Part shown: positions 5,914 to 41,385 of the stretch, in pieces
Layout of the letters: each line of letters begins with the position of its first letter
Position numbering within the stretch: position 1 is the first letter of the stretch
Source: a virus
DNA length: 41,385 bases
Direction: 5' to 3' (one strand)
IMG/VR virus record: IMGVR_UViG_3300047548_000252
Location: 1 to 41,385 of that record
Program-made: the position numbers and the translations under genes
Notes under the pieces: generated by a model
Told to the model about the DNA's origin: nothing
The model's input: only the letters and a program-made list of their open reading frames with translations
Databases searched by the model: none

Positions 5914-6558
5914 TTAAGATGGGCCAACAGATGTCTGGAAGCCGTTCCATTGGTTATCCTCTGGGTTTGTAACAGTGATGTTTGAGGTTGCGCCTGCTGG
6001 TTGATCTAGTTTGTACCACAGGAATCCAGCTACGTTGTTACCATTTGTAGCATTTCCAGCCAGAAATGTGAATCCGGACGGAGTGGTTGCATTTCTGTTA
6101 TCACTGTTAGACCCAGCAAAAGCGAATTGAATACTTTTATTAGCTGGAATGGTGATCGAATTTAGGGTACCTGGATTAGCATAGGTTGCGACCGTGCCTA
6201 CAACACCGAAAGACGCTTTACGTAAGATCACCATAATAGCAATAGACTGACCACCACCTGCTCCGTTTGTATAAGCGACGGTATATGATGAGGCACTGAC
6301 GTCTGTTGAGGTGGCAATCTTAGAATACAAACCACAGCCACCACTAGTTACTTGTCGTGTCCAACCTGTCAGTGCACTCCAAGCTCCATTGGTGCCGTTA
6401 ATTCGACCGAAGATCAACATCAGATCTCCCACCTGAACGTTAGCAGCCTTGGTGACCACGATGTTTGTTGTAGAGGTTGTTCTCTGAGATACTGCTGACG
6501 AAACAATTTCAGGGCCGGTGGATAGACCACCAGCCGCTCTAAGGAATTGACCTAGCAT
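5914..6558 (-). CDS. Putative tail fibre/receptor-binding accessory protein
   Basis: 214 aa, rich in Thr, Ser, Gly and Asn and probably all-beta. The start chosen is the ATG that shares a base with the fibre stop codon (TAATG) and follows AGGTGG; an upstream in-frame extension overlaps the fibre gene and has an implausible Trp-rich composition. Similar beta proteins lie next to fibre genes in aquatic phages and often act as tips or adhesins. No specific domain name can be given. Confidence 0.75.
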   Translation of the reverse strand: MLGQFLRAAGGLSTGPEIVSSAVSQRTTSTTNIVVTKAANVQVGDLMLIFGRINGTNGAWSALTGWTRQVTSGGCGLYSKIATSTDVSASSYTVAYTNGAGGGQSIAIMVILRKASFGVVGTVATYANPGTLNSITIPANKSIQFAFAGSNSDNRNATTPSGFTFLAGNATNGNNVAGFLWYKLDQPAGATSNITVTNPEDNQWNGFQTSVGPS

Positions 6559-8336
6559 TATGCCACCTGTCCAACGAGAGCACCGTAGATAGTCGAACCA
6601 ACTTTCCACAATTGGATCACTGTATAACCACCACCAGGAACTAACGTTGGGGCAGAACCACCAACCCAAGTTACAGGAATGGAAGTCCAGTTCACTGTGA
6701 AAAGACTAGCCGTGTCGTTGACCATGAGGGTGATAGACTCACCAGCGTTCCATGAGTTCGCTACTGGGGTACTTGCTGCTGTAAGTGTCCAAGTCTGGAT
6801 TGTTCCGTTTGAAGGACTTAGGTCAGGAGTTGTACCAGTGACCGCAAAGATTTCTTCACGGATGTAACCATCCATCACCAAGTTTGTGATCGTCTTGTTG
6901 CTCAACGTCTGGACAGCCGTGGTTCCCACCAAGCTTCCTGAAGGAGGAGTTAGCCAGGTCGTCGCATAGTCAGTTCCAGAGGACTTGACGAGGATCGCAC
7001 CTGAAGCACCACCAGCGGCAACACCTGGACCAGCCGGTCCCGTGGCACCTGTGGCACCCGCTGGGCCTTGAACGCCCTGAATTCCCTGTGGTCCCTGTGG
7101 TCCGGTATCGCCTGTATCGCCCTTCGGACCCTGTGGTCCTGTGGCTCCGTCAACACCGTTTGTTCCGTTGGTTCCTGCTGGGCCTTGTGGTCCCTGCGGT
7201 CCCTGAATTCCCTGCGGTCCCTGTGGTCCAGGTTCGCCCTGTGGTCCCTGAGGGCCTGTGGCACCCGTGGCTCCTGCGGGACCCTGTACGTTACCAACGT
7301 CTTCCCATGAGGAACCCGTCCAAACGTAGAGATCACCAGCAATCAGATAGGCGTCACCAGTCGTACCAGAGGCTGGAAGCTCACCAGTGTTGGCAGCTTC
7401 ACCAAGGATGTTGAGACCAGCTCCAACCGGACCCGCTGGACCCTGTGGTCCCGTGTTGCCGGTATCGCCCTTATCGCCCTTGTCACCCTTCAAACCCTGC
7501 GGTCCCTGGGCACCGGCAGGACCCTGAGGTCCAACATCTCCAGTGTCACCCTTTGGACCCTGAGGTCCCTGTAAACCCTGAGCACCGGCAGGACCCTGTG
7601 GTCCCGTATTTCCGGTTTCACCTTGTGGTCCCTGTAGACCCTGTGGTCCGGTCAAACCCTGTGGTCCCTGTGGTCCCGCAACGCCTTGTGGGCCTTGCTG
7701 TCCAGGAGGTAGACCAAAAGTGAAAGCAATGTTTTCAGGATCGTAGGCAACCGTAGGAGACGCACCCGATGCAAGAACATCAATGCCAACTGTGAGATTC
7801 TCAGCGAAGTTCACAGTGGCATCTTTGGAAGCTAGAGCTGCTTCGGCTGCAAGTTGAGCTTGTTCAACGAATGTGCCTGCGAGATCCTTGAAGATCCCTG
7901 CTTGATCTTCTGCATCACGAGCATTCTCTCGGTGATCAAAAGCCAAGCGTTCATATTTAAAAGCTAGATCTGCATACTGACGTGCAAGATCTGTGTAGTC
8001 CTCAAAGTCTTCTACTAGCTCATCAGCTAGTTCGAATGCTTCTTGACTTAGAAAGAAAGCCTGTTGCGTTGCTCTGTCGAGATCAGCTTCGGTAAGCACT
8101 GAACCATCAACGAAGTCAACAATTCTGTCGTCTCGTTTAGTCTGACGGAAAATCCTGATTTCAGCTCCAAGTGCAGGAGCGGGATCGATGCGGAGTGTCG
8201 AAGCATTAGACCAAGAGGGAGTGACGAGATTTCCATCTACCTTGACCTTAACATCCTGCTCATCAATGTATGAGAAGGGGACGTTGAAGATCGAGTTAGA
8301 CCCAGTTCCTGTGTAAATAACGTAACTGTAAGCCAC
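6558..8336 (-). CDS. Tail fibre with T7 gp17-type N-terminus and collagen-like stalk
   Basis: 592 aa. Residues 1-90 match the T7 gp17 N-terminal tail-attachment domain ([19 protein letters not shown], then [13 protein letters not shown]). A helical, probably trimeric coiled coil follows (about 90-180). Collagen Gly-X-Y repeats span about 212-306 and 351-438, interrupted by a 45-residue module (307-350) with [19 protein letters not shown] beta-rich C-terminus ends the protein. The start is GTG at 8336 with GGAG nine bases upstream; no ATG fits. This is the main host-recognition fibre; the tip may be supplied by the next two genes. Confidence 0.92.
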
Positions 8337-23145: not shown

Positions 23146-25125
23146 TTATCGGATTGGACAGGCTCCACCCGCACATTCCTCACCCTGGATCTCCTCAAAG
23201 CTGTTCGCTTGGTCGATCTCTAGGGGTTGGATACGGGAGGCGTACTCGTCAAAAACTTCTTTAGAAACAACCTCTTGCGGTAGGTAGAGGTATCCTAGGT
23301 CCTTGGCTGTCTTGGTTGGATCAGCACGGAATAGGAAGCTCACCCCCACATACACGTCCCAATTGTCCATCAACCAGTCCACAATGCCTTCCACCTCATC
23401 CACGGAATAGCTGATCGTGGCTGAGACGTTCTGCTGGCACCAGGACTGCATGAGCATCTTGTAACGCTCAAGCTGGCTTACGGCTGACTCTAGGTTGACC
23501 TCCAGCTCCTTACCGTCACGAACCACCTTATCGAATGGGACATCATCCCAGCGGACAGGGAAGGTGATCAGAACGGATTCAGGATCGATAGGGTTGTCAA
23601 ACACACGGTAGCCAGAAGCACGGCACAAAGGTACAAGGGGATCATGTTTGGAGAAATTCACGTTATTAAACACGTACTTACCTAGTGGCTTATGAACACC
23701 TTCAGTGGTGTCCATAATCTTCGATAGTGTCCCACTCGGTTTGATTGTCGTGACGTTCTTTGGACGCGGTAGCCCAAGCTCGTCAGCCATTGAGTAAGCT
23801 CCCGAAGTAGCTGTTCTCTGCAACTCAGTATAGTCGTAACTACCCAAGTCTGGTCTTCGCACGATACCCGTAAGACCCACGCCGCATAACCGTAGGAACT
23901 CGTTGTTGAGATGCCAAGCTTCTTGGAGGATACCATCTCTGAGATCAACACAGGTCTGCCTGTAGTTAGCCCTGGCTGCAAGATGGACTGCCCTTCTGAG
24001 ACCGGAAGAATCGCCTTTAAATTTCCCAACATCTACCTCTGTAAGATTACAGAAACTCTTGTTGCCTAACAGAATCTCTGCACATGGATTTACACCCTTG
24101 AACCAAGGGGCACGTTTAACTGCCGTCTGACCATTGATAAAGCCAGGCTCTGAACCACCAGACTCAACCATCAAATGGAAGATGTGCTCAAGCTCGTGAC
24201 GCTGTGGCTTGGTCTTGAATAGGAGAGAGTTGTTGGATTGTGCTCTCTGGATGTTCGAAACCCACCAGTCCTTCTTGGCTACTGCGAACTCTTGCCACTC
24301 GTCTTCACCGAACGCGAAGAGGGCGATTTCCGCTGACCTACGGGACGAGAGGACGGTGCCGAGCCAGTTGACGATATCGAGGATGTCGATCCTGGTGAGG
24401 AGGCTTCCTGCCCTGCGGTTGAGGATCTTGAAGATCTCTTCGTACGCTTTGGCGATGGCTCCGTCACCTGAGGAGATCCAGCCGTAGCCTTTAAGTCGCT
24501 CCCCCGAAGGACGGATTTGAGAGAAGTCCAGGACCAGCTTATCGGCTGGGTAAGGGTGAGCCATAAGCTTACCAATAGATTTCGCCCACGCTTCAGCAGA
24601 GTCTCCGATTTGGATCGTCCAGGTACCATCTTCGTACGTTTCTTTGTTGTGTTCATTACCACCTTTCTCAGTTCGTGAACTGCGAATAACTTCTAAGTTC
24701 TTGATTGGCTTCTGAAAACCAGTCAATTGACCCACGATCGGGCTGAAGCCTACACCACATCCTTGCAATAGTAGCCATAGGACATCTACAACATCATAGA
24801 TGGATTCCACATGGGTGAAGCTACAGTTGAACTGGGAGGCTTCACGCTGTCTGGCCACGGATGTACCGCCTAGCCAAAGGGTGCGTCCGGATGTCAGAAC
24901 CTTACGGTCCATCATGAGCTGTCGTAGCTCACGGAGTTCCTCCAGGCCTTCATAGGGGATCTTGTTGTCTGAAGCTCGTTCCCACAGCCAGAGCTGGTGA
25001 GCAATCACACGGTCCACCGTGTCCTCCCAGGTCTCGAAGTTCTTTCCTGAGTCGTCGGTAGGTCTGTTGTAGGTTCGTCTCGTAATTAGTTGTGCCCGTA
25101 GGCTTGGGTTACCTGTCGTCGCCAT
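23146..25125 (-). CDS. Class II (adenosylcobalamin-dependent) ribonucleoside triphosphate reductase
   Basis: 659 aa from the ATG at 25125; the longer in-frame extension overlaps the MazG-like gene and is not conserved in type. Resembles monomeric RTPR of the Lactobacillus leichmannii type: active-site Cys in QFNCSFTHV, NPCAEILLGNKSFCNLTEV, and a C-terminal redox pair in CAGGACPIR. It makes dNTPs from NTPs using B12, without oxygen dependence or a second subunit. Common in aquatic phages. It closes the DNA metabolism block and is followed by a terminator. Confidence 0.93.
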   Translation of the reverse strand: MATTGNPSLRAQLITRRTYNRPTDDSGKNFETWEDTVDRVIAHQLWLWERASDNKIPYEGLEELRELRQLMMDRKVLTSGRTLWLGGTSVARQREASQFNCSFTHVESIYDVVDVLWLLLQGCGVGFSPIVGQLTGFQKPIKNLEVIRSSRTEKGGNEHNKETYEDGTWTIQIGDSAEAWAKSIGKLMAHPYPADKLVLDFSQIRPSGERLKGYGWISSGDGAIAKAYEEIFKILNRRAGSLLTRIDILDIVNWLGTVLSSRRSAEIALFAFGEDEWQEFAVAKKDWWVSNIQRAQSNNSLLFKTKPQRHELEHIFHLMVESGGSEPGFINGQTAVKRAPWFKGVNPCAEILLGNKSFCNLTEVDVGKFKGDSSGLRRAVHLAARANYRQTCVDLRDGILQEAWHLNNEFLRLCGVGLTGIVRRPDLGSYDYTELQRTATSGAYSMADELGLPRPKNVTTIKPSGTLSKIMDTTEGVHKPLGKYVFNNVNFSKHDPLVPLCRASGYRVFDNPIDPESVLITFPVRWDDVPFDKVVRDGKELEVNLESAVSQLERYKMLMQSWCQQNVSATISYSVDEVEGIVDWLMDNWDVYVGVSFLFRADPTKTAKDLGYLYLPQEVVSKEVFDEYASRIQPLEIDQANSFEEIQGEECAGGACPIR

Positions 25126-25423
25126 GTCCTGTAATTGTATTTCTAGCCATACGGCTCGTAAGTTTATGAATGTTTGCTTCAGCAATTTCTTCCAAGGAGA
25201 AGCCGTGATCCTGTCCAATCATGGCAATATGCCAGAGGACATCACCCAGTTCCTTCTTGAGGTTCTCTCGGTACTTATCGATGTTGGCACCATCCCTAAT
25301 CAGCTTGGCCTCAAGGGACAGAACCTCACCGACCTCAGCAGCCAGGTTGAGGAAGCAATAGAGATCCGAGGCTGACTTCAACCTCGTGACCCCGCATTTG
25401 AATTGGTACTCATCGAACGTCAT
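25109..25423 (-). CDS. MazG-like nucleotide pyrophosphohydrolase
   Basis: 104 aa. It shows the metal-binding pattern of MazG/all-alpha NTP-PPases: NLAAEVGEVLSLEAKLIRD followed by KKELGDVLWHIAMIG. Such enzymes hydrolyse NTPs or (p)ppGpp-like alarmones, or cleanse dNTP pools. The ATG at 25423 is preferred because GAGG lies 7 bases upstream; an earlier start adds five residues. It overlaps the DUF3310 and reductase genes, so the three are co-translated. Confidence 0.85.
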   Translation of the reverse strand: MTFDEYQFKCGVTRLKSASDLYCFLNLAAEVGEVLSLEAKLIRDGANIDKYRENLKKELGDVLWHIAMIGQDHGFSLEEIAEANIHKLTSRMARNTITGHGDDR

Positions 25424-28938: not shown

Positions 28939-29082
28939 TTATTCATAGACTACGATCAATCGAAAGATGAACATATCGATGATGAGGTAGCCCTCGTCGT
29001 CATCGGCATATCCTACCGGGGATACACAGACCCCCACGGATACACCAAAGATTGCTTCAAACATTATCTCTGTGATTCTCAT
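28939..29082 (-). CDS. Small protein before the DNA polymerase gene
   Basis: A 47-aa frame, ATG at 29082 sharing a base with the stop of the HTH gene (TAATG), ending at 28939, just ahead of the polymerase ribosome site. The product is MRITEIMFEAIFGVSVGVCV, then an acidic DDDEGY turn and a hydrophobic IIDMFIFRLIVVY end. It may be membrane-associated. No family recognised; translation is supported by the junction and fit between neighbours. Confidence 0.6.
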   Translation of the reverse strand: MRITEIMFEAIFGVSVGVCVSPVGYADDDEGYLIIDMFIFRLIVVYE

Positions 29083-29282
29083 TATCGTCCCAACACGTAG
29101 CGAGCATAACGCTGCCCAGTGATAGGATGCTTCTTGTGCTTAGTGACGATATTGTAGCCCATCGCTCGTAGCTCGCTAATACGTTTAGTCAAGCTCTGGA
29201 TACCATGATCGATCAGGGCTTCACGCTGCGAAATGCTACGGGTCTTGCGAAGGTGCTTCAAAAGGATTTCATTCTGAGACAT
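29082..29282 (-). CDS. Helix-turn-helix protein
   Basis: 66 aa, basic. The segment ILLKHLRKTRSISQREALIDHGIQSLTKRISELRAMGY matches the small phage helix-turn-helix domain (HTH_39-like) found next to replication genes. GGAG lies upstream; the start abuts the primase-helicase stop. It probably binds DNA, either as a regulator or as a replication accessory. Confidence 0.8.
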   Translation of the reverse strand: MSQNEILLKHLRKTRSISQREALIDHGIQSLTKRISELRAMGYNIVTKHKKHPITGQRYARYVLGR

Positions 29283-32557: not shown

Positions 32558-32588
32558 GGTCCCTCCTTATGGCTCGTTTGGATTATCC

Positions 32589-32605
32589 AATTGTGCAGGG
32601 GTCAA
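32589..32605 (-). promoter_or_regulatory. Phage RNA polymerase promoter P3 (replication block)
   Basis: Minus-strand TTGACCCCTGCACAATT followed by GGATAATCC, predicted +1 at 32588; one base differs from the other copies within the left half. It lies 22 bp past the RNA polymerase stop codon and leads the SSB/endonuclease/amidase genes (class II). Confidence 0.82.
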
Positions 32606-32626
32606 ACATTTCCGCTCGGTAACCAT

Positions 32627-35152
32627 TTAGGCAAAGCAGTAGCGTGACTTGCACACCTGGCTGAGATCCAAGTCGCCTCGTTCAGGCAGGGGTTCCATCT
32701 TCTCCCGGTTCTTCTCAGAGAGCTGCTGAAGGATGTCCTCTCGGAAGTTCTCAAGGACAGGGATGTCATCGTACATCTCCACGAAACTCTCACGGACCAC
32801 GTGATACAGCTCCTCCACATCACCCGCAGTGGTTCCGAACGAGTCGTGAATCATTGCAAAGTTGTGGATGCCAGCCTGTTTCGCACGAACCACGGTGAGC
32901 ATCATGTGTGCTGCATCGCAGGAGTGTACGTAGTTAGGAGCGATCCCTTGAGATTGCTTTCTCCGGTCGAGCTTGTCCTTGTCCTGGTACATGGTCAGGA
33001 AGACAGTGCGTCCGTTGATCGCCGTCTCGATCCGTCTCTTCGATGTGTCCACATAGGCTTGCATCACAGGGAAGCCGACAGGGGTAGTCCATCGCACCGG
33101 CAATTCCTCAGAGGCAGCCAGAGAGGCAGCATGTTGGAGCCAGCGCATGGCCTCACCAGCCTTGACCAGGGTCTTGTTCACAGCCACCCAGATCGCCTTG
33201 GCCATGTAAGCCGCAGCTCGGTAGCCATCATGCGTGAAGGGGAACCGTGAGGGATCCATGGCAGCCGCCTGTTTGGCAGGACGAATGATGTCCTCCATGA
33301 GCTGCTCCTTGAACCCGTACTCCTTGGAGCCATAGGCCAGGGTCATCACCGAACGCTTGGTCACCTTGCGGGTGATACCGAACTCTAACCATTGCTTGGC
33401 AAGGGTCTTGGTTCCTTCAACCACGTATGGACGACCGTCGTCAGTGTGTGCCAGTCCGTCTTCTGTCCCAGACTCGATGTCTTCTCGGACTTGCTCAAGG
33501 ACTTTGTTGGCCACAAGCTGGTAGACATCCGCTGGTAGATCCTGTGGTACCAAGTTGACGGCTGCACCACCGGTTCTGTCACGTAGCATGGCCGAGAAGT
33601 GTTGTATGCCAGAGCATGAACCGTCCATAGCCACGGGGAGCTTCGATACGAACGAGTCACCATATTCGGTGTAACCCTTCCACTCGTAACAAAACGCCAA
33701 GAACTGCCAAGGTTTGTCAATATCCACGCCTCCCACAGAACTACACCATCCACGTTCGTTGTACGGATCCATTGCGATGCGAACAATCTCTTCTTCATTA
33801 TCTTGTACCCAATTCACTCTGTCCTCTAGGGACGCTTTATCAAAGCCAGCCACGTTTGCTCCGTGGATCGCCAACCATTTCCAACCCTCTTCACCCAGAG
33901 GCTTTCCGTTCGCGAAACGGAGGAGTGCCTTCTGATAATCAGATCCCTGTGGATTCAGGTGTGGCACTGCGTAGATCCTGCCCCTGAAATCCAATTGGTA
34001 GGGGAAGTAGATCTTTCTGAACGGCTCGAATCGCTTGGCAATCCCAAGGGCGATCGAGAAGCCAATACGCTGTCCAAGGATCGACAGGTTCTGCATGTGG
34101 ATCTTGGCAGAGGCGATCCTGAACTCCTTCTTGGCCAGCTCGTTCGTCTCGATGTCCTGAGGAACCTGAGGCATGGGCAAACCCTCGCGTGGAGGCAAAC
34201 CACCCATCTCAGAGCCTGTCTCCCAGAGTGAGGTCATCACCTCCAGGATCTGGCTGTTGATCTGCCAGGGGGTTCTCTGAAGGGCGTTCACCGCCTCGTA
34301 GACGATGGGCATCTCCACGTTCTTGAGTTCATCGAGGTAGGCACGGTTCTTGGTCTTCACCAGTTTCAACGGCTTGATGTTGGAGCTGATGTAGCCACCC
34401 GTGAATGGGTCTTCCCAATCTCGAGGTTGAACAACCATCGGTTCATAGACGGGTCTCAGAAATTGTGTGACGTCGTTCTTGCGTTCGATCCACTCCAACG
34501 TATCCGGCATGGCCTTCACGTACTTCACGCTCTGATCCTTCTCCACCTTCTGGTGGGTCAGCTCGATCACTCCGATGGATCCCATGCAGATATCCAAGAG
34601 CTTTGTGCCAACGTGCAACCTTTCCACACGAGTCCACTTTTGCCAGTCGTCAACCTTCTGAGCCTGACGAACGGCGTAGACGTGCTTGTAGTGGTAGCTC
34701 GATCGCTTCTTAGCCCCAGAGACGAGCTTGTCGTACTTGCGCTTCTCCACCTCACGAATCGCAGCGAATCGCAGCTCATCCTCGACCGCAGTGCCGATGG
34801 CCACAGCCACGAACTGAAGGGTGCGAATCGATGAGATGCCAGCCAGGACGTTCTTGAGGGTCAGGAAGGCGAGGGTGCTCGCAGACATGGCCTTGATCTT
34901 CTTGTACGCGGTGGCGTTGTTGCCAGCCCGTCCCTTGCCCGTCTCATCCAACCAGTCCTGAATCGCCTTGGCCAGGCTCTCCAGACGGTGAGACAGGATG
35001 GTCTGTCCGTAGGCTGTGCCCTCCTCTCGGTTGGCCTGTTTGGCCTTAGACACATCCCTCAGGTAGCGTTCTTGTCCTCTCTGAGTCATCTCTTCTTCGA
35101 GACGAATCTGAGTCTCCATAAGATCATTTGGTTCAGCTTGTAGTGTAGTCAT
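32627..35152 (-). CDS. Single-subunit DNA-dependent RNA polymerase (T7 RNAP-like)
   Basis: 841 aa (T7 RNAP is 883 aa). Catalytic residues are visible: D510 in AMDGSCSGIQHF, K599 and Y607 in RKVTKRSVMTLAYGSKEYG, D770 in MIHDSFG; the C-terminus RYCFA is the FAFA-like foot. The specificity loop lies around 703-735. The ATG at 35152 is preferred because the promoter element P4 lies upstream of it, inside a longer in-frame extension (to 35275, 882 aa) whose start also has AAAGGGGG. It should transcribe the operons headed by the 17-bp promoters. Confidence 0.95.
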   Translation of the reverse strand: MTTLQAEPNDLMETQIRLEEEMTQRGQERYLRDVSKAKQANREEGTAYGQTILSHRLESLAKAIQDWLDETGKGRAGNNATAYKKIKAMSASTLAFLTLKNVLAGISSIRTLQFVAVAIGTAVEDELRFAAIREVEKRKYDKLVSGAKKRSSYHYKHVYAVRQAQKVDDWQKWTRVERLHVGTKLLDICMGSIGVIELTHQKVEKDQSVKYVKAMPDTLEWIERKNDVTQFLRPVYEPMVVQPRDWEDPFTGGYISSNIKPLKLVKTKNRAYLDELKNVEMPIVYEAVNALQRTPWQINSQILEVMTSLWETGSEMGGLPPREGLPMPQVPQDIETNELAKKEFRIASAKIHMQNLSILGQRIGFSIALGIAKRFEPFRKIYFPYQLDFRGRIYAVPHLNPQGSDYQKALLRFANGKPLGEEGWKWLAIHGANVAGFDKASLEDRVNWVQDNEEEIVRIAMDPYNERGWCSSVGGVDIDKPWQFLAFCYEWKGYTEYGDSFVSKLPVAMDGSCSGIQHFSAMLRDRTGGAAVNLVPQDLPADVYQLVANKVLEQVREDIESGTEDGLAHTDDGRPYVVEGTKTLAKQWLEFGITRKVTKRSVMTLAYGSKEYGFKEQLMEDIIRPAKQAAAMDPSRFPFTHDGYRAAAYMAKAIWVAVNKTLVKAGEAMRWLQHAASLAASEELPVRWTTPVGFPVMQAYVDTSKRRIETAINGRTVFLTMYQDKDKLDRRKQSQGIAPNYVHSCDAAHMMLTVVRAKQAGIHNFAMIHDSFGTTAGDVEELYHVVRESFVEMYDDIPVLENFREDILQQLSEKNREKMEPLPERGDLDLSQVCKSRYCFA

Positions 35153-35237
35153 AGCTCTCTCTAGGTTTAAATATATATAGTTAATATCTTTATAGATATA
35201 TATCGCTAAGATATCTTTAGATCTCTCAGGGATATCC

Positions 35238-35254
35238 AATTGTGCAGGAGTCAA
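35238..35254 (-). promoter_or_regulatory. Phage RNA polymerase promoter P4 (upstream of the polymerase gene)
   Basis: Minus-strand TTGACTCCTGCACAATT followed by GGATATCC, predicted +1 at 35237, 85 bases before the chosen polymerase start. The leader is A/T-rich with GATATC and ATATAT stretches. It would let the polymerase amplify its own gene. Confidence 0.82.
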
Positions 35255-35296
35255 ATTCTTAACCATGTCGTTCATGGTTTGCCCCCTTTGTCTCCG

Positions 35297-35331: not shown

Positions 35332-35353
35332 AGTTGTCACAGAGTTGTCACAG
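35332..35353. repeat. Perfect tandem 11-bp repeat near attP
   Basis: AGTTGTCACAG occurs twice head to tail, followed at once by a 7-bp dyad (AAGGTTG/CAACCTT, 35354-35376). The location, about 120 bp from the attP core, suits integrase arm-type or regulatory sites. That role is inference. Confidence 0.6.
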
Positions 35354-35412: not shown

Positions 35413-35456
35413 TCAAAAACTAAGGGGGATCAAGGTTATAGACTCCTTGACCCCCC
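35413..35456 (-). terminator. Strong rho-independent terminator next to attP
   Basis: On the minus strand GGGGG-TCAAGG pairs with CCTTGA-CCCCC (one A-C mismatch within a 12-base stem), with a 9-base loop, followed by TTAGTTTTT. It starts 11 bp beyond the CCA end of the tRNA half in attP. After integration it would sit just downstream of the rebuilt host tRNA-Leu gene, ahead of the phage polymerase gene. Confidence 0.87.
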
Positions 35457-35467
35457 TCGGTTTGATC

Positions 35468-35520
35468 TGGTGCCCCTGGCCGGGATCGAACCAGCACTCC
35501 TTGCGGAACTCGATTTTGAG
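35468..35520 (-). other. attP: attP core: 3' half of tRNA-Leu(CAA)
   Basis: Read on the minus strand, 53 bases form the 3' part of a leucine tRNA: anticodon loop CTCAAAA (anticodon CAA), stem strand TCGAG, long variable arm with TTCC-GCAA-GGAG, T arm GCTGG-TTCGATC-CCGGC, acceptor strand CAGGGGC and ACCA. No matching 5' half is present upstream (GCCCCTG is missing, and the anticodon stem does not close), so it is not a functional gene. A tRNA 3' end beside an integrase gene is the usual attP; integration would restore the host tRNA. Confidence 0.9.
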
Positions 35521-35626
35521 AACCACCGGTTTACTTGCTGGAAGCTAACTCCCTGATATCTAAGCCAAAAACATCGATCAAACTGGTAACATAAGACGCA
35601 AAGGAAACTGTCTTACGTCATGTGTG

Positions 35627-36664
35627 TCACGCAGACCGGAGCACCGGAGCGTGTGAGTTCCTATACTGGTCCAAGGCATCCACGCCTTCGATCAACTTGC
35701 TAGGTGCGAGGTGCATGTAGCGAGCTGTCGTGATGGGAGTGGAGTGACCCATCCAGGCCTGAATGAACTGAGCCGTCTTGTCCTGCATGGCGAGACGAGA
35801 GGCACAGGTATGCCTGAGCATGTGAACCACGAACTGGGGATCGTCCTGCTTCCCAAGGTACGCTCTGACCTCCTCCCACTTGGTCCTGAGGCGAGAGGGA
35901 GTGAGATCCCCGAAGAGGATCTTGTTGTTCCTCCTCCGCTCCAGAATCTCCTGAACACGCTTGGTGGCAGGGACTGCCCTAGCCTTGTTCGTTTTGGTCT
36001 GGTCAGGGTGGAGATGCAGAAACCCACCACGGTACTGACTGACAGGGAAGTTCAGCAGCTCCATCCTGCGGAAGCCGGTGTCGATCGCACACACGATGTA
36101 GTCGTGTATGGGATGAAGCCCCATCTTCGTACAGGTGTTCAGAACCTCCATCTCCTCCTCAGCATCGAGCCACCGGATCCTGTGGTCACCGTTAGCCCTT
36201 CGCTTGATGCGTGGCATGGTTTCAATCCAGCCCTCATCAGCAGCCGTCTTGAGCATCATCGAGAGAGCCGAGAGCTTCCCGTTGATCGTTCCACCCGAGT
36301 CACCCTCTTCGAGAAACTCGCTGACCATCTCACGGATCACCGATGTGGTTATCTCCGTGACAGGGGTGTCCTTGCCGAGCGAATCAATCACCGGCTTGGA
36401 GGTGAATAGGTACGCTTTGGAGCGTTTTGTGCTCCAGATGTCCCTGACGGTGAGCTGGTAGGCCGCATAGAGGGTATGCAAATTTTGCTTACCCATGCGT
36501 ACCTCTGTGCGTGTATCCGGTAGGACATCTTCGTGTTTCCGGCAGAGTTCAAGAGTTTTCTCCTGTAAAACTGCCTCAGCGTAGGTCTTGACCGACTTTC
36601 TAACTCGATCTTTCCCACTGCCGACAGATACCATCCATGAGTTACCTCGTTTATAGATTGGCAT
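35627..36664 (-). CDS. int: Tyrosine recombinase / integrase
   Basis: 345 aa. An N-terminal arm-binding-like region and a core-binding helical domain (about 60-155) precede the catalytic domain. Catalytic residues: R199 in DTGFRRMELL, Lys near 224-227, H281 and R284 in HMLRHTCASR, H307 in WMGHS, and the nucleophile Y316 in TARYMHL. It should insert the phage at a tRNA-Leu gene; attP lies 107 bp downstream. GGAGAAG precedes the ATG, which overlaps the MarR-like gene by 14 bases, so the two are co-expressed. Confidence 0.95.
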   Translation of the reverse strand: MPIYKRGNSWMVSVGSGKDRVRKSVKTYAEAVLQEKTLELCRKHEDVLPDTRTEVRMGKQNLHTLYAAYQLTVRDIWSTKRSKAYLFTSKPVIDSLGKDTPVTEITTSVIREMVSEFLEEGDSGGTINGKLSALSMMLKTAADEGWIETMPRIKRRANGDHRIRWLDAEEEMEVLNTCTKMGLHPIHDYIVCAIDTGFRRMELLNFPVSQYRGGFLHLHPDQTKTNKARAVPATKRVQEILERRRNNKILFGDLTPSRLRTKWEEVRAYLGKQDDPQFVVHMLRHTCASRLAMQDKTAQFIQAWMGHSTPITTARYMHLAPSKLIEGVDALDQYRNSHAPVLRSA

Positions 36665-36983
36665 GGTCTTCTCCTAGTAGTCTTCTTACGGTTGCCCTTC
36701 CCTTAGGAGTCAGTCGAATGATCTTCTTCCGACGTTCCATAGGGTCTTCAAAGGCTTCGATTAGATTGAAACCTTCCTCCTTATGTCTGTTGATCTTACC
36801 CAGTGCCGCTACGTAACGTGATGCTGTAGCGATCCCTATCTCTGCCTTCTTGGCTAAGTCTGACAGAGAAAGGCCTTCCTCTTCTTTGGCGATCAGGAGG
36901 AGACAGTGGATCTGCTGCAATGGCATCTCCGTGTCTACTCGTCTGACCACGCTCACGAACCTTATTGCGTCATCTAGCTGCAT
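36651..36983 (-). CDS. MarR-like winged-helix regulator
   Basis: 110 aa. Winged-helix pattern: LQQIHCLLLIAKEEEGLSLSDLAKKAEIGIATASRYVAALGKINRH, then a wing and RRKKIIRLTPKGRATVRRLL, typical of MarR-family proteins. It overlaps the integrase start by 14 bases. It may control integration/lysogeny or act as a directionality factor; no CI-like repressor is seen elsewhere. An ATG with a weak upstream GAG is used. Confidence 0.85.
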   Translation of the reverse strand: MQLDDAIRFVSVVRRVDTEMPLQQIHCLLLIAKEEEGLSLSDLAKKAEIGIATASRYVAALGKINRHKEEGFNLIEAFEDPMERRKKIIRLTPKGRATVRRLLGEDHANL

Positions 36984-37077
36984 ACTCAGTTCTCACTCTT
37001 TGACCCTTTAAGCAGGGCAGTTCGCACCATGCACGAAAGAGGGACTCCGGTCAACAACAGTTGCCGTTTGGAAAGCG

Positions 37078-37401
37078 TTGACATTGTTTTCCACGGAGTC
37101 ACTTTTTCCACCAGGCAAACGAACGGAGGAAGCGTTGAGACTGTCTAATGCACTGATTGAGACTGTTAAAAAGGCTGGTGTCGAGGTCTATTTCGCAGAC
37201 CGCAGCACCACCAAGGTTTGGAACCAGATCAGATCCAGGGGTGAACCCCTGCAATATGGAGGCTGGTACTGGTACCGCAAACACAAGGGCAGGGTGGTTG
37301 AGACAGACGAGGAGGGACCATTCAGATCCGAGTCCTCAGCCTTCCGTGATGCCTTCATCAAGCTCCAATTGCGCCAGGCTCCGTCTTATCAAGAACGATA
37401 A
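37078..37401 (+). CDS. Only plus-strand gene: unknown protein beside the lysogeny genes
   Basis: 107 aa. The C-terminal half, with GGWYWYRKHKGRVVETDEEG, then PFRSESSAF and a final helix, looks like the aromatic GGWYW...GPF-type domain of short phage proteins, so it is probably a real gene. The start is likely TTG at 37078 (GGAAAG upstream); no in-frame ATG exists. It is divergent from the MarR-like gene and its end overlaps the opposite-strand gene by 44 bases. Orientation alone suggests expression in the lysogen or from a separate promoter. Confidence 0.65.
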   Translation: MTLFSTESLFPPGKRTEEALRLSNALIETVKKAGVEVYFADRSTTKVWNQIRSRGEPLQYGGWYWYRKHKGRVVETDEEGPFRSESSAFRDAFIKLQLRQAPSYQER

Positions 37402-39589: not shown

Positions 39590-39862
39590 TTAGTTAAACC
39601 ATGCGGTCATCAATGGGTGACTGTGGGTCACCTTTGGCGGGACATAAGCACCCCATATCTGTTTTGGCTCTAGGTCATCTCCTAGAGGTGTCCAATAGAC
39701 ATCCAAGCCCTTCCTCTCGTAGCTCACCAGTCCATCCCGTAGGAGTGACTTGAGGGCGTTGTGACAGAGGTTCCGAGAGAGACCTGAGAGGTCTCCTAGG
39801 GTTTTCGTTTTGGATGTCCCGTGGTCAGTTAGTAGTTGAATCATGAGTTCCTTGTGGGTCAT
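39590..39862 (-). CDS. Winged-helix early regulator-like protein
   Basis: 90 aa. LMIQLLTDHGTSKTKTLGDLSGLSRNLCHNALKSLLRDGLVSYERKGLDVYWTPL reads as a winged helix-turn-helix with an aromatic wing, the type used in small DNA-binding regulators. It overlaps the previous gene by 4 bases, with AAGGAG upstream. It may control early or lysogenic expression; this is inference. Confidence 0.78.
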   Translation of the reverse strand: MTHKELMIQLLTDHGTSKTKTLGDLSGLSRNLCHNALKSLLRDGLVSYERKGLDVYWTPLGDDLEPKQIWGAYVPPKVTHSHPLMTAWFN

Positions 39863-41180: not shown

Positions 41181-41194
41181 GATATCCAATTGTG
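41181..41194 (-). promoter_or_regulatory. Half phage promoter
   Basis: The 14 bases CACAATTGGATATC are identical to the initiation side of promoter P4, but the recognition half (TTGACTCCTG) is replaced by GTATAGTA, part of a GTGTA-N8-TACAC dyad. Either a decayed promoter or a site read by another factor. Confidence 0.45.
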
Positions 41195-41258: not shown

Positions 41259-41385
41259 CTATATATAATAATAACTTAGAGATACACCTAGAGATAAACC
41301 TAGAGACAATCTTAGAGAGACACCTAGAGATAACCTATAGATTAACCTTTAGTTCTCCCTCTCCCCTATTGAGCAGGAGTCAAGA
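41259..41385. repeat. Direct terminal repeat, right copy
   Basis: Identical to bases 1-127, including the 12-bp tandem array (41276-41346). Transcription of the early region starts from this side. The unique genome length is therefore 41,258 bp. The same caution about assembler overlap applies. Confidence 0.9.
41367..41383 (-). promoter_or_regulatory. Phage RNA polymerase promoter, terminal-repeat copy (right)
   Basis: Same 17-mer as at 109-125 (predicted +1 at 41366). On this end it reads into the early region, like T7 phiOL, which fires near the genome start and supports replication initiation. Confidence 0.72.

Follow-up and report, generated by a model that had tools for sequence, protein, structure and literature searches.

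How might a T7-like phage insert itself into a bacterial genome and then hold its own RNA polymerase (RNAP) off? The locus described here raises this question. The window, that is, the whole 41,385-base virus record analysed, contains T7-like structural and replication genes by Pfam and PHROG profile matches, and its sequence marks it as a T7-like (Autographiviridae) phage with the kit for insertion into a bacterial leucine-tRNA gene. With temperate Autographiviridae of the LUZ100/Pasto type it shares a T7-type single-subunit RNAP in a T7-like gene set, an integrase near the RNAP with a MarR-like gene directly upstream, and an attachment site in a tRNA gene, the last also found in one relative. 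Phages of this kind are known: LUZ100, the HTVC019P group, Pasto and T7-like cyanophages carry integrases, and several also have a MarR-like regulator and tRNA-Leu sites (PMC10134795, PMC6811365, PMC8776855); vB_PaeM-G11 is an induced prophage among integrating T7-like phages (PMC10142737). The remark in the initial annotation that classic T7-like phages are strictly lytic therefore overstates the surprise. The fresh part of the finding is a divergent gene, missed at that stage, together with its operator, neither of which we found described in a literature search that had Boeckman et al. 2022 outside its scope.

The features around the attachment site, in minus-strand order, are:

36,651–36,983, minus strand: MarR-like winged-helix regulator, 110 aa (AlphaFold model; PHROG 9665 transcriptional regulator).
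35,627–36,664, minus strand: tyrosine integrase, 345 aa (Pfam/PHROG matches, invariant catalytic residues).
35,468–35,520, minus strand: attP core, a tRNA-Leu(CAA) 3' half running from anticodon loop to CCA (exact match, at least 114 bacterial loci).
35,422–35,458, minus strand: terminator-like element immediately downstream of the attP core, a strong hairpin and then a T-rich run (folding).
35,332–35,352, minus strand: TGTGACAACT twice in tandem, putative arm-type sites of the integrase (same word flanks attP in relatives).
32,627–35,275, minus strand: T7-type RNAP, ORF as listed (Pfam RNA_pol, 1e-120).

The integrase looks intact. It scores 2.2e-17 with Pfam Phage_integrase and 2.2e-46 with the PHROG integrase profile, and the tyrosine recombinase catalytic set R, K, H, R, H, Y is present as R199, K224, H281, R284, H307 and Y316, all invariant across nine homologues. 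This agrees with the earlier description of a complete enzyme from R199, H281, R284, H307 and Y316, and the 14-nt overlap between the regulator and integrase genes is likewise confirmed from the coordinates. In many relatives an unbiased word search found attP flanked on either side by TGTGACA/TGTCACA, as is typical of integrase arm sites, making these words candidates for that role. In the window attP has such words on one side only, two tandem copies that are not significant by themselves, and TGTGACA shows no window-wide enrichment; it is the relatives that make the case for arm sites.

The attP core reads CTCAAAATCGAGTTCCGCAAGGAGTGCTGGTTCGATCCCGGCCAGGGGCACCA on the minus strand of 35,468–35,520. 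At least 114 tRNA loci (at least 119 stretches of GTDB genomes) contain its 52-mer, TCAAAA through CCA, without a mismatch, and the next base, the C that opens the anticodon loop, is also identical in 114 of the 115 loci with enough flank. Identity to the host loci stops at that C and at CCA, with none beyond on either side, and ARAGORN called the complete host genes in the sampled bacterial loci as tRNA-Leu(CAA). The matches, their boundaries and these calls identify the block as a genuine tRNA 3' half, far beyond chance. ARAGORN called no tRNA in the window, so no 5' half is present. Thus the search for bacterial tRNA-Leu genes proposed in the initial annotation succeeded, and the block it had described, a 53-base 3' half of a leucine tRNA(CAA) ending in CCA with no matching 5' half, was found as stated. 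Its broader interpretation, of a tRNA-Leu attP with an intact-looking integrase and a MarR-like regulator, is supported.

Among the matches listed, the named loci are nearly all from Hyphomicrobiales (Bosea, Microvirga, Rhodopseudomonas, Mesorhizobium and Nitratireductor), one being a Sphingomonadales-named MAG; in a Pseudomonadota sample 3 of 398 genomes match, namely the centre and two genomes already within the Hyphomicrobiales draw. The host therefore probably belongs to the Hyphomicrobiales, a prediction that covers the order and not the host itself and that calls for caution, the phage G+C of 50% being low for hosts of this type. With its exact attP and the order of its likely host, this putatively temperate phage is a well-resolved addition to the temperate T7-like phages, whose number is growing. 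The same tRNA-Leu(CAA) adjoins a 381-aa integrase unmatched by this phage's integrase on a viral contig (L131, 1,658–1,742), which shows that other elements use this site too; we set the contig aside because, although it shares the tRNA site, no protein of the module had a match there.

We think it fairly probable that these features form an integration module, with a marR-int operon, a tRNA-Leu(CAA) target, control of the RNAP by the MarR-like protein and its operator, and a divergent opposing gene. The integrase, made from the overlapping marR-int operon, would join attP to the host tRNA-Leu(CAA) gene, and the phage copy would restore the tRNA 3' half upon integration. The expected junctions are the host 5' half, core and GATCAAACCGAGG on one side and GTAAACCGGTGGTT, core and host on the other. 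With attP positioned between int and the RNAP gene, integration would cut the RNAP off from both the marR-int and the early promoters and leave it downstream of the regenerated host tRNA, behind the hairpin. Such a separation could silence the RNAP. The hairpin may act as a terminator: the segment 35,405–35,467 has a folding energy of -28.1 kcal/mol (z -4.1). Consensus scans for sigma-70 promoters and terminators did no better than on shuffled sequence and were set aside.

The module is shared by about 30 IMG/VR relatives with the common order MarR-Int-attP-RNAP, drawn from 35 IMG/VR loci with an RNAP at least 50% identical. A MarR-like gene lies directly upstream of int in 31 of the 32 relatives with enough sequence, and 26 of the 35 have a tRNA 3' half in the int-RNAP interval; by eye most of these halves belong to tRNA-Leu isoacceptors and one, in L155, apparently to tRNA-Cys. 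One relative, G436 (L162), is a provirus. It carries a 52-bp direct repeat at both ends, the 3' half of an apparent tRNA-Leu(TAG), with int adjoining one copy and the RNAP the other. In three others (G440, G444 and G446) int and RNAP likewise occupy the two opposite ends of the contig, though these showed no att repeat; the 123 bp repeated in G440 appear to be an overlap of the contig's ends. The window has int, attP and RNAP side by side, and its record is therefore of the free or virion form. T7-type RNAPs in Hyphomicrobiales mostly lack a marR-int cassette, L148 being the only one with it.

Could integration be merely transient, int and attP being functional but no lysogen maintained? We consider this improbable, though precedents exist. 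Integration without stable lysogens is known from T7-like cyanophages that have int and attP (PMC8776855); in P-SSP7 and S-TIP37 int is followed by a partial tRNA-Leu attP, as here, and these phages enter tRNA-Leu (PMC8776855). LUZ100 yielded no lysogen (PMC10134795). The prophages flanked by the block that the initial annotation had proposed to look for were not found for this phage: neither an integrated copy nor a close integrase was seen beside the matching tRNA loci or in 397 Hyphomicrobiales genomes, the latter search showing little since it had no positive control, and searching IMG/VR for attP-plus-phage junctions gave no match. The relative G436 is integrated at a tRNA-Leu 3' half, as the initial annotation would predict, and the existence of such related proviruses argues against transience. 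So does the conserved MarR-like gene and operator network of the clade, whereas no repressor homologue is reported for the cyanophages (PMC8776855).

Named phages share parts of this arrangement. Pseudomonas phage LUZ100 (OP329100), also T7-like, has a MarR-like gene, integrase and RNAP in the same order with a tRNA-Leu nearby, and its marR and int are co-transcribed (PMC10134795); however, its tRNA-Leu(TAA) is complete, on the other strand and between marR and int, its Int is just 32% identical, and the divergent gene was not detected in it. The closest named phage, Bordetella phage vB_BbrP_BB8 (MK984681, Gyeongsanvirus; RNAP 64%, Int 47%), also has int just before the RNAP but gave no MarR match and no tRNA in the region. 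In Limnohabitans phage YIMV22061 (PQ492660) a MarR-like homologue is clustered with int, RNAP and a tRNA-Leu, but this tRNA-Leu(TAA) is complete and on the opposite strand, and the RNAP is 55% identical. HTVC019P-type pelagiphages and uv-Fonsiphage-EPL integrate into tRNA-Leu(TAG) (PMC6811365), and the HTVC019P-type phages have MarR homologues, although both groups are distant and infect other hosts.

The regulator is MarR-like by fold but not by Pfam profile. Its AlphaFold model (pLDDT 80) has MarR/MepR/MexR as best PDB matches, consistent with a predicted MarR family fold, whereas it reaches 21.9 bits against the Pfam MarR cut-off of 24.6, and HTH_IclR scores above its own cut-off. No CI-like repressor was found among the early ORFs scanned with Pfam and PHROG profiles, as the initial annotation had noted, in contrast to the lambda-type CI/Cro switch with its CI-like repressor gene. 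Integration-dependent immunity of the mycobacteriophage BPs type also differs, since its attP lies inside the repressor gene and here attP lies outside marR and int. Two more small winged-helix proteins, at 29,082–29,282 (HTH_39) and 39,590–39,862 (weak HTH_24), could also be regulatory.

Control of the regulator and of the RNAP would involve the following elements:

37,135–37,401, plus strand: divergent gene for an 88-aa protein, with a TTG start codon and GGAGG at 37,125–37,129 (20 IMG/VR homologues, coding-type pattern).
37,105–37,118, no strand: second operator-like palindrome, TTTCCACCAGGCAA (matrix scan, score 12.8).
37,078–37,083, plus strand: TTGACA, -35 element of the divergent gene (alignment).
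37,061–37,074, no strand: candidate operator, the palindrome TTGCCGTTTGGAAA, flanked by the -35 boxes of marR and the divergent gene (position conserved in relatives).
37,050–37,055, minus strand: GTTGAC with the conserved TTGAC -35 element, marR-int promoter (alignment and sequence reading).
35,233–35,244, minus strand: CACAATTGGATA, candidate phage-RNAP promoter before the RNAP (repeated word, also in relatives).
32,609–32,622, no strand: operator-like palindrome just after the RNAP gene (matrix scan, score 12.7).

The divergent gene lies on the strand opposite to the other likely genes and is read away from marR. Its 20 IMG/VR homologues are divergent to marR-int in all 18 loci with marR covered, and the identities at the three codon positions, about 0.7/0.84/0.47, reveal constraint on the protein. 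The protein gave no convincing match in Pfam, PHROG or phage records and no usable match in a fold search (model pLDDT 63). It is likely an opposing arm, putatively an anti-repressor, Cro-like protein or excision factor. A homologue also occurs on L263 (3,089–3,325), where the stretch fetched matched neither MarR nor Int nor RNAP.

Between the two genes the order is the marR -35 element (minus strand), the palindrome TTTCCAnTTGGnAA and the divergent-gene TTGACA. The marR-int -35 element, plus-strand GTCAA, is present in 12 of 13 aligned phages, the window among them; TTGACA is invariant in all 13 and present in 19 of 20 loci. We built an operator matrix from this intergenic palindrome alone and counted matches outside the training sites against shuffles. 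Matches fall in the int-RNAP gap in 8 of 14 loci (0.15 in shuffles) and a few bases past the RNAP stop in 6 of 11, the window included (0.06 in shuffles); the scan gave no match in the window's own int-RNAP gap. Sites on both sides of the RNAP fit a proposal by Boeckman et al. 2022 (Virology 568:86), as cited in the LUZ100 paper (PMC10134795), in which the promoter of the RNAP is flanked by MarR sites. Two close relatives have further clusters of operator-like palindromes in their early regions (L126, 1,906–2,749; L127, 1,894–2,745).

MarR-fold proteins usually bind near-palindromes at their own promoters, and the MarR-like protein would repress its own operon in this way; in relatives it would also act at the RNAP-flanking sites, keeping the self-amplifying RNAP off. 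That the palindrome is instead bound by the divergent protein or a host factor, with MarR acting elsewhere, seems unlikely to us. The divergent gene does share the site, and binding by MarR is itself read from the DNA, but L126 and L129 have a MarR-like gene and the palindrome with no divergent-gene match, which points to MarR as the binder, as does the habit of the fold.

As a candidate phage promoter before the RNAP, CACAATTGGATA would let the polymerase amplify its own expression when repression fails. The word has three exact copies (32,584–32,595, 35,233–35,244 and 41,183–41,194), each on the minus strand, which look like phage-specific promoter elements, and it precedes the RNAP in several relatives too. 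The listed RNAP ORF starts upstream of this candidate promoter (extra stretch 35,153–35,275). The true start is probably M42 at 35,152, since homologues align from about residue 26–60 and a GGAGAG site supports it. The divergent protein would oppose the MarR-like protein, and we suggest, tentatively and at rather less than even confidence, that the two form a two-sided switch on a shared operator controlling the RNAP, with integration adding silencing. No such lysis-lysogeny switch is described for T7-like phages in the literature searched. The operator, divergent gene, hairpin and arm sites are concrete sequences for testing how T7-like phages hold lysogeny.

That the module is a relic, its attP taken from a former host and the phage virulent today, is very improbable: one-sided arm repeats, the int-RNAP gap free of operator matches and a G+C mismatch with the matching hosts would fit, but int and marR are intact, the 53-nt match is perfect and the divergent gene shows coding-type conservation.

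A 127-bp repeat occupies both window ends (1–127 and 41,259–41,385); assemblers often have 127 as their largest k-mer, so the repeat may come from a circular assembly and not be the phage's true terminal repeat. The phage also carries a ribonucleotide reductase gene (23,146–25,218; PHROG 367) and a tail fibre with long collagen-like Gly-X-Y repeats (6,558–8,336).
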